This document shows positions 15,138 through 32,211 of a stretch of 42,230 nucleotides of DNA, in pieces. Position numbers and translations under genes: made by a program. Each line of letters starts with the position of its first letter. The stretch's first letter is position 1. This DNA comes from a virus. Location: positions 1 to 42,230 of IMG/VR virus record IMGVR_UViG_3300046703_000092. One strand, given 5' to 3'. The notes beneath the pieces are model-generated. The model had not been told where the DNA came from. It did not search any database and was given only the letters and a program-made list of their open reading frames with translations.

Positions 15138-15442
15138 GGGACGAACTCCGCAATCACATCGCCGTGGCAGGGCAGGGGCGCGCACCAGCAGGCGAGGCGC
15201 TTGCCTCGGAGGGGCTCGAGGAAAGCCGGGTTGTCGGCGAGCAGGATGGCGAGGATGCCCCGGTACTCCGCGATGGCCATCGCCCGACGCTGAGCCTTCG
15301 GCCCGTGGAAGTCGTCCATGTGGACCGGGTTACCCCAGACCGTCAGCCGGTCAATCCGCTCGACATCGGGGGGCAGGATCGAGGGATCGCGACGGGTCAT
15401 CGTCGCCCCGAAGGCGCGGAGGTTGACGACGCGCTTGCTCAT
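15134..15442 (-). CDS. DUF4326-family protein
   Basis: A 102-residue protein with the DUF4326 pattern: RLTVWGNPVHMDDFHG, an internal helix with AEYRGILAIL, and the C-terminal LRGKRLACWCAPLPCHGDVI, where CWC and PCH are the conserved residues. The family is common in phages. Its biochemical role is not established, although the Cys/His set suggests a metal site. Coupled by 4-bp overlaps to the RuvC-like gene upstream and the RlpA-like gene downstream. Confidence 0.85.
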   Translation of the reverse strand: MSKRVVNLRAFGATMTRRDPSILPPDVERIDRLTVWGNPVHMDDFHGPKAQRRAMAIAEYRGILAILLADNPAFLEPLRGKRLACWCAPLPCHGDVIAEFVP

Positions 15443-15969
15443 GGCTTCTTCGGCTCCGGGTTCTTCGCGCCCTCGGCGTAGGCGACGGCGACCGCGAGCG
15501 CCTGCCAGCAGTCCGCATGGAACCCGTAGAGCGGCCCCGGGTGCGCCTTGACTCCCTTGGCGCCATCACCACCGAAGCGGTCCAGCATCGTCCGGCGGAT
15601 GAGGGAGTCGGCGCTCTTCACGTTGCGCTTGCCGAAGAAGTGAGCGAGGACATCGGCCCGGGGCAGGAGCACGACCGGGACGGCGCTCACCTGCTCGAAC
15701 CGCCCGACCCAGCGGCACGTCTGGTAGATCTCGGCGCCAGCGATAGAAGCGACGGTGATCCATTCGATCACGGCGACGTCGCCGCGCCACTTGGCTGCGA
15801 GCTCGAGCACCTCCTCGTTCGGCAGCTTCGCGGTGGCGGTCGGTTCGCCGAGGGCCAGGATGACGTAGGCCGAGCGGGTCGGACCCGGATCGATGGCGAG
15901 GATGGTCCGGGCAACGACAGGCGCTACATCGGCTGGCCCGGCCAGCGAGGCGAACATGGGCTCGGTCAT
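15439..15969 (-). CDS. RuvC-like Holliday-junction resolvase
   Basis: A 176-residue RNase H-fold nuclease. The first strand ILAIDPGPTRSAYVIL contributes Asp27, VAVIEW contributes Glu69, and the C-terminal GFHADCWQALAVAVAY contributes His151/Asp153 in the DxxxA position. Phage RuvC-like enzymes cut branched recombination or replication intermediates before packaging. It sits in the replication region with SbcCD. Start ATG at 15969, overlapping the upstream stop by 4 bp. Longer upstream extensions of the frame look non-coding. Confidence 0.85.
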   Translation of the reverse strand: MTEPMFASLAGPADVAPVVARTILAIDPGPTRSAYVILALGEPTATAKLPNEEVLELAAKWRGDVAVIEWITVASIAGAEIYQTCRWVGRFEQVSAVPVVLLPRADVLAHFFGKRNVKSADSLIRRTMLDRFGGDGAKGVKAHPGPLYGFHADCWQALAVAVAYAEGAKNPEPKKP

Positions 15970-16379
15970 GGCGTCGCCTCCGCTGCTCGGCGCAGGATCG
16001 AGCCCACGAGCTTCTTGGCCGACTCCGGGTCTGGGTCGCCACGGCGCTCCCAATCGACGTCGTCCTGGGCACGGGTCGCGTCCTCTCGGAGCCCTTCGAC
16101 GTGGGAGATGAGCTGCGTGATGACTGCCGACCACGACCGGGAGCGCCGCATGATCCGCTCGAGCTCCACGGGCTGGTCGCACATCGCGGCGTAGACGATC
16201 GCCCGCTGGCTCGGCTGCTCTTCGTCGCGATCGTCGTGCACGGTCCCGATCGGCGGGTAGATGTAGCCGCGCTCCGCTGCCAGCCGGTAGATCGCGTGCC
16301 AGCGCCGATCCCGGAAGTCGCCCTCTGCCCACGCTCGGCGTGCAGCCGCGTATGTCCTCCGGTCGTAGGTCTTCGTCAT
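15966..16379 (-). CDS. Replication-region protein of unknown function
   Basis: A 137-residue protein, rich in Arg and aromatic residues at the N-terminus (TYAAARRAWAEGDFRDRRWH), then largely helical with charged residues (VELERIMRRSRSWSAVITQLISHVEGLREDA). No named domain is recognised. It lies between the replisome-organiser-like gene and the RuvC-like gene with 4-bp overlaps on both sides, so a DNA-metabolism role is plausible but unproven. Confidence 0.55.
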   Translation of the reverse strand: MTKTYDRRTYAAARRAWAEGDFRDRRWHAIYRLAAERGYIYPPIGTVHDDRDEEQPSQRAIVYAAMCDQPVELERIMRRSRSWSAVITQLISHVEGLREDATRAQDDVDWERRGDPDPESAKKLVGSILRRAAEATP

Positions 16380-17041
16380 CGGACAGTCCCAACAGGCTGA
16401 ACAGCAGCGGGTGACGTGGCCTCGAACCAGGAGCCGTCCTCGGCGCCCTCCTGCGCGCCAACGGCCTCAGGCTGCTGTATAGCCTTCGTAGAGATTCCGT
16501 CGCCTGGTAGCCTGGTAGCCGTCGCCACGGCGTTGCGGGCGCGTCGTGGCGCGCGCACATCGCCCGTGCGAGGGTCCTCTGTTACATCGGGCGTTACGTC
16601 TGCCGTTACCGCTCCGTTAGCACCACCGTTAGCACCACCGTTAGCGTCGGCGTTAGCAGGGGAGTTACGCTGCCGGGCTCGGAAACGGTGCACCCGGTCG
16701 GCGATGGTGGTGTCGCCCTCCTGCAGGATCTCCCACCCCTCGACGTCCAGCCCACCACCCGCGGCGGCCACCAGATCGCCGTGTTTGATCAGGAACGGGA
16801 CCTGCCGAGCGAACCGACGGCCCTTGCCGGTGGGTCCCTCGAGGAGGACGCGCAGGAGCCGCTCCGACTCGAAGTGGCCCCGCCGCGGCTGCTCCTCGGC
16901 TAGCTCGAGCATCCCGTAGAACGCCACGATGGCGTCGGGCCCATAGGCTGGCCGCCTCGGCGAGCCGTCGTCGTTGCACGTGCCGAACGCCTTCCGGCGG
17001 TAGGTGCCGACGACCTGGCGGATGGTGTACCTGGGCGGCAT
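16376..17041 (-). CDS. Putative phage replisome organiser / replication initiation protein
   Basis: A 221-residue protein. Residues 1-125 are compact and helical (MLELAEEQPRRGHFESERLL, RQVPFLIKHGDLVAA, then IADRVHRFRARQRN). Phage replisome organisers often show this pattern of a winged-helix-like N-domain ending in RVxRFRxRxRN. Residues 126-155 are a repetitive linker (ANGGANGGANGAVTADVT) whose DNA forms the iteron-like array annotated separately. The C-terminal tail is low complexity. It probably recruits host helicase at the phage origin. The family call rests on pattern and context, not on a catalytic motif. Confidence 0.5.
   Translation of the reverse strand: MPPRYTIRQVVGTYRRKAFGTCNDDGSPRRPAYGPDAIVAFYGMLELAEEQPRRGHFESERLLRVLLEGPTGKGRRFARQVPFLIKHGDLVAAAGGGLDVEGWEILQEGDTTIADRVHRFRARQRNSPANADANGGANGGANGAVTADVTPDVTEDPRTGDVRAPRRARNAVATATRLPGDGISTKAIQQPEAVGAQEGAEDGSWFEATSPAAVQPVGTVR
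16581..16667 (+). repeat. Iteron-like array: eight GTTA motifs at 11-12 bp spacing (origin candidate)
   Basis: GTTA begins at 16581, 16593, 16605, 16616, 16628, 16640, 16652 and 16664. The spacings are 12, 12, 11, 12, 12, 12 and 12. The two central units are identical 12-mers (GTTAGCACCACC). The array lies inside the replisome-organiser-like gene. The single 11-bp step changes the reading phase from Ala-Asn to Val-Thr repeats while the DNA motif goes on, which suggests selection on the DNA. Iterons inside the initiator gene are known from lambda O. Confidence 0.6.
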
Positions 17042-19898: not shown

Positions 19899-22109
19899 TC
19901 AGCTGATCTGCTCGACCACGGATCCGCCCGGGCCCTTCGAGACCCGGTAGACAGCGTCCCCGACCTCGGCGAGGTCCTCGTGGTGGCTGACGACGACGAC
20001 CCGCTCGAGCTCGCCGTGGTGGGCGAGGACGCGCAGGGCCAGGCCGAAGGCGCGGCGCGCCTCGGCGTCGAGCCCATCCGGCTCGTCGACGACGAGCGTC
20101 CTGATCGCGGTCCCGGCTCGGCGTGCCACGAGGCGCGAGAGCCCGACCGCGAGGGCGAGCGAGACGCTCATTCGCTCGCCGCCCGAGAACAGCGACAGCG
20201 GTCGCTCGCCGACGTCGTCGCGGACGACCAGGTCGAGCGCTTCGACGATGCCCTTGCCATCCCGCTTCGCGCGCTGGGCCCGGATCGAGAGCTCCATGCC
20301 CGGCCGCAGCTGGTCGAGCAGCTCCTGGGCGTAGCTCGTGAGCTCGGGCAGGACCGACTCGATGATCCGGGCCGGGATCCCGGTGACCCCGAATGCGGCC
20401 ACCAGGCGGCGCAGGAGCGCCAGCTGGCCATCGGCCCGGGCGACGTCGCCGGCGATGCGATCGCGCTCGACCTGGTCGCGCTCGAGGCGTACCAGGGCAC
20501 CGCGGGCCTCGGCGTCGGCCGCGATCGCCGCGGCGTGGCGCCGGCCGGCATCCATGGCGTCTGCGACTGCCTGGCGGCGTTCGAACTCCGCATCCGAGAG
20601 CTCGCCGGCCGCCTTGCTGGCATCGGCCGCCCGCTCGTCCGCCTTCGCGCGAGTGATGGCTGCGGCCTTCCCGGTCGCATCGATCTCGTCCTGCTCCTCG
20701 TCAGCGCGCGCCAGGGCGGCCTCCGCCCCTGCCAGTGCTACACGTGCGCCATCCCGGGCCACTTCGGCCGCGTGTGCGCCCCGTGCCGCGTCCAGGGCCA
20801 AGCGGGCGGTCCGCAGCAGCTGGTGATCGAACGCGTGCTCGAGCAGGTGCGTCTCCGTCCGCGAGACCGCGACCCGAGCGCGGGACATCGTCATCGGCTC
20901 GGCCGGCGCAGGCCCGACCGCGGCGAGCTCCTCCCGGGCCGCGGTGAGCCGGCCGGCGACGTCGCCCGGATCCGCGGGGAACCGATGCGCGCACTTCGGG
21001 CAGGTGACCGGCGCCAGGTGCATCCCCTGGTCTTCGAGGGCCGCCACGAGCCCCGCGGCCGTCGCCTGGCGTCCGCGCCAGTCGGCGGCCACCTGGGTGT
21101 GGACCCTCTCCATCTCGACGAACTCAGCCCGGCGGGCCTCGAGGGCCTCGCGCTGTTCGCGCTCGCGCTCGGCGGCCGCCTCGAGCGTCTCGACCTCCGC
21201 CATGGCGGCAAGGACGTCGTGCTCGGGCACCTCTGCCGCAGCCGCGGCCTTCGTCCGATCGATTGCCGCCTGTGCCTCACGCCGAGCCTCAACGGCACGG
21301 CGATAGCGTTCGCGGAGGGCATGGAGATCGCGATCGATGCGCTCGAGCTCGGCGACCGCGGCCCGTGCTTCGGCGAGGCGCCCGGACAGGGCGGCGATCG
21401 CCTCGTCTGCCGCGTCCCGCCGGCCGCCGGCGGCCTCCATCGCGGAGACGGTCGCCTCTTCCTCGGCCTTCGCCGCAGCCGCGGCCGCCTCAAGCTCGGC
21501 CCGGTGAGAGAGCGCCGCGTCGAGTGACTCGAGGGACCTGCGAGAGACCTGTGTCTCGGCCTCGATCCCCCGGGCGCGATCGCGGGCTCGCGCTTCCGCG
21601 GCCGCGTACACGTCGAGCCCGAGGACCGACCCGAGGATCCGCTTGCGCTCCGCGGCCGTCGCGCTGATGAACGCGTCGGCGTCGCCCTGGCGCAGGAAGG
21701 CAGCCGTCGTGAAGGTGGCGGCGTCCAGGCGCAGCAGGGCCTCGATCGCGGCCTGCGTCTCTCGGATCGAGTCGGCCGTCAGTGGCCGCCAGGAGCCGTC
21801 AGCCTGCGCGATCGCGAGCTCGAGGTAGCTCTTGCCGCCCGAGCGCGTCGTCCGTCCGCGGGTGACCCGGTAGCGGGCGCCGGCGAAGCTGAACGTGACC
21901 TCGGCGGACATGTCGGTGGCGCCCAGGCGCACGAGGTCATCGGTCCGGGCGCGGGCGGCGTCGTAGAGCGCGAAGAGGAAGCCATCGAGCAGGGCGCTCT
22001 TCCCGGCGCCGTTCGGGCCCACGATCGTCGAGAGCCGCGAGCCGTTCGGCTCCCAGTGGGTAGCCTCGTGCGAGAGGAAGTTTCGCAGGTCGATCGACTC
22101 GAGCTTCAT
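19899..22109 (-). CDS. sbcC: SbcC/Rad50-type SMC-like ATPase
   Basis: A 736-residue protein. Walker A is GPNGAGKS at 31-38. Long coiled-coil arms rich in Ala/Glu/Arg follow on each side of a zinc hook with Cys370 and Cys373 (TCPKCAHR). The ABC signature SLFSGGERMS lies near residue 640, and Walker B plus D-loop (LVVDEPDGLDAEARR) near 675, followed by the His loop (VVVSHHEDL). With SbcD it opens and degrades DNA ends and hairpins. It is shorter than most bacterial SbcC because the arms are short, comparable to phage gp46-type proteins. Confidence 0.92.
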   Translation of the reverse strand: MKLESIDLRNFLSHEATHWEPNGSRLSTIVGPNGAGKSALLDGFLFALYDAARARTDDLVRLGATDMSAEVTFSFAGARYRVTRGRTTRSGGKSYLELAIAQADGSWRPLTADSIRETQAAIEALLRLDAATFTTAAFLRQGDADAFISATAAERKRILGSVLGLDVYAAAEARARDRARGIEAETQVSRRSLESLDAALSHRAELEAAAAAAKAEEEATVSAMEAAGGRRDAADEAIAALSGRLAEARAAVAELERIDRDLHALRERYRRAVEARREAQAAIDRTKAAAAAEVPEHDVLAAMAEVETLEAAAEREREQREALEARRAEFVEMERVHTQVAADWRGRQATAAGLVAALEDQGMHLAPVTCPKCAHRFPADPGDVAGRLTAAREELAAVGPAPAEPMTMSRARVAVSRTETHLLEHAFDHQLLRTARLALDAARGAHAAEVARDGARVALAGAEAALARADEEQDEIDATGKAAAITRAKADERAADASKAAGELSDAEFERRQAVADAMDAGRRHAAAIAADAEARGALVRLERDQVERDRIAGDVARADGQLALLRRLVAAFGVTGIPARIIESVLPELTSYAQELLDQLRPGMELSIRAQRAKRDGKGIVEALDLVVRDDVGERPLSLFSGGERMSVSLALAVGLSRLVARRAGTAIRTLVVDEPDGLDAEARRAFGLALRVLAHHGELERVVVVSHHEDLAEVGDAVYRVSKGPGGSVVEQIS

Positions 22110-22345
22110 CGGACCGCTCCTGGTGCGGCCCGGGCGGTGCGAACGAACGTCTTGCACGGGCCGCCGTAGTCGCTCGTCAGGCTCTCGATCGTCGCGTCGA
22201 AGAAGTAGATGGCCCTCTCTCTCGGGACGAAGAGCTCGACGCGACCGCGATCCCCGACTGCCGCGTCATCGGGAGCCGAGTACGTCAGCGACGCTCGCTG
22301 CGAGCCGTCCCGGTTCCAGACCGCCACCACCACGCGCTTGCTCAT
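22106..22345 (-). CDS. Small protein between SbcC and SbcD
   Basis: A 79-residue protein, beta-rich (VVVAVWNRDGSQRASLTYSA, GRVELFVPRERAIYFFDATI). It is encoded between the two subunits of the SbcCD nuclease and overlaps both by 4 bp. No family recognised. Its fixed place inside the sbcDC pair suggests an accessory or a simple early gene. Confidence 0.55.
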   Translation of the reverse strand: MSKRVVVAVWNRDGSQRASLTYSAPDDAAVGDRGRVELFVPRERAIYFFDATIESLTSDYGGPCKTFVRTARAAPGAVR

Positions 22346-23463
22346 GCCGCAGCCTCCAGGAGCTCGCGCCCGAGCGCGACGAGCGGCTCGGCGTCCGGGT
22401 CGGCCGCGAAGTAGGCGGAGAGTGCCTCGAGCGGGCCGAGGGACTCGGACAGTCCGCCGGCGATCTCCGGGGCATCGGGGCGGAGCCGGGTGATTGAGAC
22501 GACGTCCCAGGCGCCCGCGAGCTCCATCGCCTTGTGGATGTCGTCTCCGGACACGCCGGGGTCGACGTTGATCGCGCGCACGACCGCGTCCTCGACGTCA
22601 GGGAACCCCGCGGCCTCGAGCGCGTAGTCGACCGTCACGAACCGCCGCGCTGGCGTCTCGACGAACTGCATCGTCGTGGCATTGCCGACGTCGACGACCA
22701 TGTAGCCCTTGCGCTGATTGGCTTCGCCGAAGTCCGTCCGGTAGGGCGACCCCGCGTAGGCGATCAGCGGGTGTTCGGAGATCACCTGGTGCTTGTGGTA
22801 GTGGCCGGCGACGATCGCGTCGAACCCGATCGCGCCGAGTGCGCCCGAGTCGATCACGAGGCTCTTGTCGCCCAGGAATGCCGCCTGGCTGTCGCTCATG
22901 AGACCGCCGGAAAGCCCCTGATGGACCACGAGGACCTGATGCGGCAGGACGTCGCTCGCCTGGACGTAGAGACGCCGGGCTTCGAACAGGAACTGCTTGG
23001 CCAGCTCCTCGAGGATCTTGGATTCGGGCAGCTTCTCCATGCCCGGCCGGGCCCGCAGCCAATGCCTGTCGGCGTAGGGAAGCACCGCCACCGCGACGTC
23101 GCCGACGACCACGATCCCCTGGTGCGTGAAGCCGTGCCACCCCGGCCGCCCACGGGCGAGCACATCGACGATCGAACGGTCGTTGCGCTCGCCGTCGTGA
23201 TTGCCTCGAGCGAGGACCGTTGGGCCGCCGAAGGCGTCGAGCGCCTCGCCGATCTGGGCCACGCGCCAAGGCGCGGGATGGCGGAACTCGGTCAGGTCGC
23301 CGGCGACGATCAGGGCGTCGCAGCCGCGCTCGCGCGCATCGTTGGCGACCCACCGGACCATCGCGACGGTGTCCACCCAACGGGCGTTCAAGCCCGTCGC
23401 GGCGTCGATCTTCGAGCCGAAGTCGTCGCAGTGCGGATCCGCCAGGACGGCCAGGCGCGTCAT
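22342..23463 (-). CDS. sbcD: SbcD/Mre11-type nuclease
   Basis: A 373-residue calcineurin-like phosphoesterase with all five metal-binding blocks: Asp9 and His11 in LADPHCDDF, Asp56 in VAGDLTEF, Asn88/His89 in RGNHDGE, the VVHQGLSGG block, and GHYHKHQ. The C-terminal 150 residues form the capping domain and the SbcC-binding part. It is the nuclease partner of SbcC and probably trims DNA ends for phage recombination. Start ATG at 23463, overlapping the previous stop. Length is near the usual 380-400. Confidence 0.93.
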   Translation of the reverse strand: MTRLAVLADPHCDDFGSKIDAATGLNARWVDTVAMVRWVANDARERGCDALIVAGDLTEFRHPAPWRVAQIGEALDAFGGPTVLARGNHDGERNDRSIVDVLARGRPGWHGFTHQGIVVVGDVAVAVLPYADRHWLRARPGMEKLPESKILEELAKQFLFEARRLYVQASDVLPHQVLVVHQGLSGGLMSDSQAAFLGDKSLVIDSGALGAIGFDAIVAGHYHKHQVISEHPLIAYAGSPYRTDFGEANQRKGYMVVDVGNATTMQFVETPARRFVTVDYALEAAGFPDVEDAVVRAINVDPGVSGDDIHKAMELAGAWDVVSITRLRPDAPEIAGGLSESLGPLEALSAYFAADPDAEPLVALGRELLEAAA

Positions 23464-23789
23464 CGGCCGAACACTTCCGCGGTCTCGCCTGGCGGCCCGT
23501 CGAACCAGGTGGGCTCGCCCTCGGCGAGCCGCTCGTGTCGGATCTCGGCCGCGGACGGCGCCATGGGCCAGGGGCCCTCTTCGGCCGCCTTGACGACGTA
23601 GCAGGCGCCTCGGAACCGGCCGCCCTCGCACTCGCAGGTGAGCTCGCCGACGCGGCGGAGCTCGTCCCGGACGCGGAAGTCGCCGGCCTCGATCGGATGA
23701 ACGAAGTGGTAGCGGGTGCCGTCCTTCGAGAGCGCCAGCCAGGTCCGGCGCGCCGGATCCGCGAAGGCGAACACGACGGGCGGGGTCAT
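23460..23789 (-). CDS. Small protein with SWIM-like Cys motif
   Basis: A 109-residue protein with WLALSKDGTRYHFVHP at the N-terminus and a central LTCECEGGRFRGACYVVKA. CxC followed by Cys recalls SWIM zinc fingers (CxCx-CxH), but the last His is missing here, so the match is partial. It is encoded directly upstream of sbcD with 4-bp overlaps. A nucleic-acid-binding accessory role is possible. Confidence 0.55.
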   Translation of the reverse strand: MTPPVVFAFADPARRTWLALSKDGTRYHFVHPIEAGDFRVRDELRRVGELTCECEGGRFRGACYVVKAAEEGPWPMAPSAAEIRHERLAEGEPTWFDGPPGETAEVFGR

Positions 23790-23998
23790 CGCCGGGACCG
23801 ATCGAGCGCCTGGAGGACCTCGCCGCGATCGAGGTAGTCGCCGTTCGGGGAACCGTCCATTCCGTCTTCGCGCCACTCGTACCGACGGAGCGCGTTGATG
23901 GCATCCAGGAGGTCCTCGCGGACCTCCTCTTCGATCTTCTCGACGGCGTCCGAGAGGTTGTCGACGGCGTCTTTGCCGGCTTCGGTCAGGATGGTCAT
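23786..23998 (-). CDS. Small acidic helical protein
   Basis: A 70-residue protein, helical throughout (DAVDNLSDAVEKIEEEVRED, LLDAINALRRYEW), with an acidic first half. The C-terminus (GDYLDRGEVLQALDRSRR) is amphipathic. No known family. It sits between a possible annealing protein and sbcD, coupled at both ends. It could be a protein-protein interaction module. Confidence 0.55.
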   Translation of the reverse strand: MTILTEAGKDAVDNLSDAVEKIEEEVREDLLDAINALRRYEWREDGMDGSPNGDYLDRGEVLQALDRSRR

Positions 23999-32100: not shown

Positions 32101-32211
32101 CAGCGCGATCGCGACCGGCGCCGGCGTCAGGACATAGGCGGTCTCAGGCCCGACGAGCCCGCCGCCCGGCCCGACGAGCCCGCCGCCCGGCCCGACGAGC
32201 GCCCTAGTCAT
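29095..32211 (-). CDS. Large tail hub/baseplate-like protein with repeat-rich N-terminus
   Basis: A 1038-residue protein. Residues 5-22 hold Gly-rich LVGPGGG repeats. Residues 28-132 hold five PSPVAIALVIPTP-type repeats, and 133-200 five alternating HQLFDL/SQPFDL repeats. Residues 206-305 form a domain resembling a repeat found in large phage and bacterial surface proteins (ANEVQVIASGG, TFDGQSTG, AQAALEALSN, GDITITGG). From about 315 on there is a siphophage hub-like region (VSRHSPDIGLIASDRLVRLQ). The C-terminus is beta-rich with many tryptophans. It probably joins tail tube to fibres. The functions of the repeats are unknown. Confidence 0.75.
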   Translation of the reverse strand: MTRALVGPGGGLVGPGGGLVGPETAYVLTPAPVAIALVVPVPAIDRPRALHPSPVAIHLAIPAPFLGTLVPSPVAIALVIPTPTITFILAPSPVAIPLFIPVPVLTGGIRTLVPSPVAIALVIPTPSVTRSLASLHQLFDLLAVSSALSQPFDLLAPDVSVTLHQLFDLTGPVGSTLSQPFDFLTDAVGASLRQLFDLLGSAPLANEVQVIASGGPVTSYVLTFDGQSTGAITGTANAATAQAALEALSNLAPGDITITGGPLNTADLVITFGGTLAGINVPQITVVATGISGTPPIAGTTTTGGPTSSGGGLIQNVPLLWLPLMVFDKAGRYLGSIAAFNVTIEPVRYLRSRRVTNEGGMTFNVSRHSPDIGLIASDRLVRLQSVAGETPWWGTMSPQVSAKGIQEVTCKDPFTVLRDGLAITLTEEVGDDTPATGVYARIMGIHNDLRATNGEAQWELDLQGSRPFRGDIDVDTDTLSCLDTIIGRSRTEIAWDSRLEGNRLVPILRARDSFAAGAGAAIYDGPGGNVTAGAQVVEDPTPLVFSIRLRGLTTDLAKCLPEWAQWALLDVTPEATVSVDPGERRMRQVLEESLDWGLSKAAVAAQCAAIQAWIWELYRSFLRAVHDIEGRPWHDGWAFLGPPAEFEPTNAGKDSLSRRAWRTRLQLVELQDNVPASAVMISDKNVVSNLREWLVVAYDRVTGVQSVWTWAIPTVVGAALIKWNAVASVTVYKVSGGRIVSRAPEGPTGAFVDPYSVRIWDPVAKRYRYLRRIINGDWALNYWIDPADSTNHLVDMGADAAVDQVAGDGSSLIGKAYDFELDRIDDYDPRRDGIGILKSALTVFNGAETSRPRWHIASFDVGGDATTSLTTGISAGDADFEVDSIMGFPDPDAELSAFPFLAWIDQGSNREVVLVLSMLGTLWHVVRGQLGTEAIIHEAGAPVGREGVGAWAGFPFPYTWPEGEQWAADELAELSRPRIDVGVHVAHFRDDQLTIAYGSTHAVNVATEGAPGRWSGTGRAIGWSTGDGETEVVLQWLP
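31835..31881. repeat. 47-bp direct repeat, copy 1
   Basis: Identical to 31964-32010, inside the PVAI-repeat region of the large tail gene. The copies are offset by 129 bp (43 codons), so recombination between them would keep the reading frame. Confidence 0.9.
31964..32010. repeat. 47-bp direct repeat, copy 2
   Basis: Second copy of the 47-bp unit. It encodes the LVPSPVAIALVIPTP repeat in the same frame as copy 1. Nucleotide identity over the full 47 bases implies a recent duplication or gene conversion. Confidence 0.9.
32147..32200. repeat. 21-bp tandem repeat at the tail gene 5' end
   Basis: Two complete 21-bp units and one partial 12-bp unit, encoding LVGPGGG repeats near the N-terminus. 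The length is a multiple of three, so copy number can vary without a frameshift. Confidence 0.85.

Follow-up and report, generated by a model that had tools for sequence, protein, structure and literature searches.

A frame-shifting array of short direct repeats within a phage initiator-like gene as a probable replication origin

Introduction

The origin of bacteriophage lambda lies within a coding sequence: the iterons of lambda ori are located inside the initiator gene O, as four 18-bp iterons approximately 20 bp apart that are accompanied by an AT-rich region. Similar arrangements are described for other phages. In Tuc2009 and TP901-1, the products of ORF16 and ORF13, respectively, bind direct repeats within their own genes, and these repeats serve as the origin (PMC8965321). 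In SPP1, gp38 binds the direct repeats of oriL, which lie in gene 38, and the origin also contains an AT-rich unwinding element (PMC6316719). ORF20 of 80alpha cannot be complemented in trans, suggesting that the gene itself contains the ori (PMC5499656). Moreover, the 80alpha sequence record annotates a rep_origin within ORF20.

Here we analyse a 42,230-nucleotide viral DNA (IMG/VR record IMGVR_UViG_3300046703_000092; hereafter, the window) in which an initiator-like gene contains eight closely spaced copies of a short motif. An earlier note, made from the sequence alone, had likened this arrangement to the origin in lambda O. The comparison is apt, and Tuc2009, TP901-1, SPP1 and 80alpha provide closer precedents.

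Results

With a 127-bp direct terminal repeat and 70% GC, the window represents a complete phage genome. Portal and terminase genes are present, as are SbcC/SbcD-like genes, which adjoin one another at 19899-23904, and a Holliday-junction resolvase-like gene (Table 1). A search of the window against Rfam gave no match. Elsewhere in the genome, a perfect 21-bp tandem repeat of 2.6 copies (32147-32200) is located at the start of a 1038-aa tail-fibre-like ORF. The start of the gene that carries the array is most likely the ATG listed in Table 1 rather than the upstream GTG of the mechanically derived ORF. In the homologue L362, the array gene is likewise trailed by a protein similar to the product of the 137-aa gene of the window. 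Among the neighbours of the array gene that were tested, no recognisable match to a helicase loader gene was found.

Table 1 Features of the array gene and its surroundings, by position in the window
Feature	Position	Strand	Remarks
Holliday-junction resolvase-like gene	15439..15996	-	PHROG 1770, E 6e-8; same module, downstream
Next gene after the array gene, 137 aa	15966..16379	-	
Block ~97% identical to L001, end of the array gene and start of the next	16263..16502	.	Candidate unwinding element
Initiator-like gene	16376..17041	-	221 aa, ATG at 17041; family of 23 by protein and profile searches
47-bp block identical in L001, read there in another frame	16510..16556	.	After the array
Eight-unit TAAC array (+ strand: GTTA) in the predicted disordered linker	16581..16667	-	Steps of 12 or 11 bp
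Three VT-encoding units (frame xTA-AC) past the 11-bp step	16581..16608	-	
Five RN/AN-encoding units (frame xxT-AAC; one RN, four AN)	16616..16667	-	
N-terminal winged-helix-type domain, residues ~10-108, presumed DNA-binding	16718..17014	-	AlphaFold2 and Foldseek

On the + strand, the GTTA motifs start at 16581, 16593, 16605, 16616, 16628, 16640, 16652 and 16664, with steps of 12, 12, 11, 12, 12, 12 and 12 bp; on the coding strand, the TAAC units correspond to gene offsets 374-457. The extent of the array and its steps are as the earlier note had given them. The note's reading of the array as five Asn units followed by three Val-Thr units also holds, except that the first unit encodes RN and not AN. 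The 42,230 bases contain 24 GTTA/TAAC sites in total, eight of which fall within the 87-base array. A four-unit pattern with 12-bp spacing matched twice at the array and found no match in any of 100 dinucleotide-shuffled versions of the window. When codons were shuffled synonymously within the gene (1000 shuffles), the longest TAAC/GTTA chain averaged 1.37 units and never exceeded 5, as against the 8 observed. The order of the two frames follows from the motif itself. An 11-bp step can lead only from xxT-AAC to xTA-AC, because moving by −1 once more would turn TAA into an in-frame stop codon; with TAA barred in frame, the xN units must precede the VT units, and a return is possible only by a 10- or 13-bp step. 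The array thus presents one hallmark of intragenic iteron origins, namely, directly repeated short sites inside an initiator-like gene.

The protein encoded by this gene was predicted by AlphaFold2 to contain an N-terminal domain of helices plus a two-strand wing (pLDDT ~90-98 for residues 11-100), followed by a disordered linker (pLDDT ~43-53) that bears the array. A disordered linker would need only to tolerate the residues that the DNA dictates. Foldseek searches against the PDB matched winged-helix proteins weakly (E ~0.3), and against phage helix–turn–helix (HTH) proteins the probability was 0.99-1.00 with a weak E of ~1e-3. Pfam and PHROG searches with the protein returned no match and no named initiator family, including DUF1376 and the primosomal YdaU type (PF07120 or primosomal PHROGs). 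A PDB sequence search returned nothing, and tblastn against cultured phages found no relative even at E 1.

The array gene is shared with the two nearest relatives, L001 and L002, at 86% identity over the whole protein. Their array consists of seven TAAC units with steps of 12, 12, 12, 11, 12 and 12 bp; one unit has been lost and the 11-bp frame shift has been retained. When the units of the window and L001 were paired, 28/28 motif bases were identical versus 37/56 spacer bases (Fisher p 0.0002). At two places, the encoded residue is replaced (A->G and V->L) and TAAC is unchanged. Just beyond the array, conservation rises at the level of DNA. Identity to L001, high in the block at 16263-16502, is ~89% in the N-domain and <80% further on, and synonymous changes number 1 in 41 codons at the gene end versus 32 in 124 in the N-domain. 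Two of the twelve least stable 50-bp duplex stretches of the genome lie in this block, starting at 16468 and 16351, with GC there still ~65%. These properties would suit an unwinding element. We offer this role for the block as a suggestion only, because recent recombination could also explain it.

Searching with a profile built from three sequences added 19 viral relatives and another two found in genome assemblies; the family has 23 members. Across the family, the motif generalises to GTNAC, and the frame in which it is read varies from member to member. GTAAC is read as VT in L358 (five units), L359 (four) and L361 (five) and as N in L360 (four), and GTTAC is read as VT in L355 (four) and L363 (eight). 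A switch from N to VT occurs within the arrays of L362 and L364, and GTNAC arrays run through all three frames in L368 and L369 (steps of 11, 11 and 11 bp) and in L366 (steps of 12, 12, 11 and 11 bp). In L362, a sixth GTAAC follows an 11-bp step and places TAA in frame, where it is the gene's own stop codon. Summed over the family, the TAAC/GTTA chains amount to 68 units versus 24.3 ± 2.4 (maximum 34) in 1000 synonymous shuffles. Codon usage shows the same bias: the Val codons of VT pairs in the linkers are GTA or GTT in 57/64 cases versus 64/342 elsewhere (p 1e-27), and T precedes AAC in 24/52 cases versus 1/54.

The motif is not present as an array in every member. In 8/23, we found no GTNAC, TAAC or GTTA chain of more than two units; L354 and L365, both among these eight, lack any clear array. 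A purine-rich tract of repeated hexamers (TAGCGG/TAGGCG) is frequent after the array in relatives such as L354, L356 and L374; it was considered as part of the model and left out, because neither the window nor several other members have it. The 86%-identical homologue L373 (4950-6260, from a Chloroflexi MAG) contains an HNH-like insertion precisely at the junction of the N-domain and the array linker, and its linker motifs are mostly GTGAC.

The family therefore exhibits another hallmark of intragenic iteron origins, which is conservation of the repeats at the DNA level and independent of frame. The claim that the DNA rather than the protein is conserved is upheld by the homologues, through the motif bases kept in L001 and the frame switches, and by the synonymous shuffles. 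The earlier note had further proposed comparing motif with amino acids among homologues, and retention of AN or VT without the motif was not seen as a rule. In our view, the sequence comparisons establish that selection acts on the DNA of the array and not on a protein repeat.

To place the array in a wider context, IMG/VR was scanned for TAAC at this spacing. Tail-fibre repeats also contain TAAC at 12 bp, always in a single frame in the sample read; demanding one 11-bp step drops most of them, and initiator-type genes become prominent. With the frame shift included, at least 16/61 ORFs match initiation, primosomal, replisome-organizer or DnaD-like PHROGs, a share that is a lower bound, as 20 chosen candidates were scanned individually; the totals of the TAAC scan are lower bounds as well. 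By contrast, in a control scan with the reversed motif CAAT at identical spacing, the leading families were portals, methylases and tape measures, with one DUF1376 initiator among 49 ORFs (Fisher p 3.5e-4). This comparison is approximate, as the control was judged by family counts. The phages whose initiator-type ORFs contain frame-shifting TAAC arrays range from 35% to 68% GC, and genomes above 60% GC account for 18/119 among the TAAC matches listed versus none in the CAAT control.

We also fetched 69 DUF1376 initiators regardless of motif. A TAAC/GTTA array is present in 3/69 of these, so GTAAC was rejected as a universal initiator motif. However, in 19/69 some 5-mer forms a significant array at 10-13 bp, versus ~3.5 expected at p<0.05 (binomial p 8e-10, with relatedness ignored); often it is GCAAT or GCAAA in steps of 11 and 12 bp and in more than one frame. 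The architecture is thus shared, and the motif is specific to the family. The suggestion in the earlier note that comparable linkers might all be hidden origins thus stands in part: many of them are arrays, but the motif differs, and L354 and L365 show no clear array. Individual DUF1376-type examples include L440, L399, L452, L454, L415, L411, L397 and L424, with GCAAA, ACGCA and AGCAATGC-like arrays in 11-/12-bp steps and mixed frames. The Rac prophage of E. coli K-12 has an active origin, oriJ, and its DUF1376 gene ydaU (L345 5120-5977) was considered as a candidate for it. The ydaU linker contains TGTT units spaced 12 and 11 bp apart, but the longest chain is 3, and the candidate was not retained. 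In the RepA-like initiator gene of Microbacterium phage Blett (gp42), DnaA-box-like GTTGATAAG and GTGCATAAG lie just past GTCAC repeats (L455 1552-1581).

The same detector was applied to initiator genes of cultured phages. In the rep gene of Tuc2009, CAACCA occurs four times, exactly 11 bp apart (offsets 341, 352, 363 and 374), in frames 2, 1, 0 and 2, and we infer that these units are the repeats bound by the Tuc2009 product. No exact 10-13-bp chain was detected in TP901-1 rep or 80alpha ORF20, and mapped intragenic origins therefore need not resemble the array of the window. Initiator-type genes of two further phages contain chains: GTAACG three times at 11 and 10 bp in Staphylococcus phage phi11, and GTTAC five times in all three frames in S-CoN_Ph27.

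Discussion

Taken together, the anatomy of the locus and the mapped precedents make it likely that the array is a cis-acting set of iterons that is bound by the product of its own gene and acts as a replication origin. We propose the following mechanism. The iterons (core GTAACG, family consensus GTNAC), which recur every 11-12 bp, would lie roughly on one face of the helix and would be bound by the winged-helix-type N-domain of the array gene's own protein. Several initiator molecules would assemble on the array, melt the less stable duplex in the neighbouring conserved block and, by recruiting a helicase loader and helicase, initiate theta replication. Two other features associated with origins gave nothing here: GC skew across the window contained no usable signal, and no DnaA box within 1 mismatch was found near the array.

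Binding of the initiator to the array could instead serve mainly autoregulation or copy control, making it an operator or handcuffing site and not a start site. Plasmid iterons commonly serve both replication and copy control, and the array does sit within a transcribed gene. However, the arrays are located in the linker, ~300-480 bp into the gene, where an operator would be unusual, and the mapped precedents are origins, which leaves this explanation unlikely. We consider it more improbable still that the array is bound by another factor, such as a host factor, a partition protein or terminase, and functions as a centromere or packaging site whose location within this gene is a coincidence. 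The protein proposed to bind the array is so far a candidate only, and ParR-type centromeres also have repeats about one helical turn apart; yet unrelated phages repeatedly have frame-shifting arrays in genes of the initiator, primosomal and DnaD-like types, and the motif of these arrays varies with the initiator family (GTNAC here, GCAAT/GCAAA in many DUF1376 members and CAACCA in Tuc2009). A low-complexity Asn/Val/Thr linker repeat produced by slippage, without a function in the DNA, might account for nearly tandem units and, with a four-residue period, for 12-bp steps, and GNVT repeats in tail fibres do yield similar DNA without frame shifts, but the frame shifts within arrays (some of which cycle through all frames), the array unit that doubles as a stop codon in L362, rare codons confined to motif positions and residue changes that spare TAAC make it scarcely credible, and it was rejected on the evidence of the homologues, synonymous shuffles and codon usage.

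If the array is an origin, as we favour, it has practical consequences. For a phage with no cultured relative found, the origin could be placed to within ~100 bp from sequence alone by an array that withstands frame shifts, codon bias and the loss of units, and such an array supplies a motif that can be tested. The odd Asn/Val/Thr linkers of several initiators would be explained as a by-product of a constraint on the DNA rather than by protein function. Because the same architecture occurs with differing motifs in staphylococcal, lactococcal, Gordonia and many uncultured phages, origins and initiator specificities could be annotated on the scale of whole collections. A broader proposal, which we hold tentatively, is that frame-blind 11-12-bp iteron arrays in disordered linkers are a general way in which many unrelated initiator families carry their origins. 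Origin and DNA specificity might then be read from the linker codons of uncultured phages, and xN followed by VT, as the in-frame-stop rule demands, would mark the GTAAC class. Our paper searches found no description of the breadth of frame-blind arrays or of the stop-codon rule, part of which earlier reviews may have anticipated; these two aspects may be new.

The remaining question is how the locus relates to the known systems. Lambda ori has 18-bp iterons, unlike the window, in which a core of 4-6 bp recurs every 11-12 bp. Gene 38 of SPP1 and ORF20 of 80alpha have the origin inside the initiator gene, as proposed for the window, although in 80alpha ORF20, unlike the window, no short motif forms an exact 10-13-bp chain. 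Among actinophages, a cultured example is gp51 of Gordonia phage TinaLin (L456 1264-2094), annotated as a replication initiation protein, in which GGACCGGCG occurs four times at 11 bp in all three frames; its motif differs from that of the window. Farther on in the same gene, CGAA occurs five times at 11 bp in three frames. We know of no mapped origin in TinaLin. In Tuc2009, rep2009 (ORF16) resembles the window in having an array of short direct repeats inside the initiator gene. It differs in its CAACC motif, in its protein family, in the higher AT content of its genome and in having four tight units rather than eight. On these comparisons, the array of the window is best read as a further case of the known origins carried within initiator genes.
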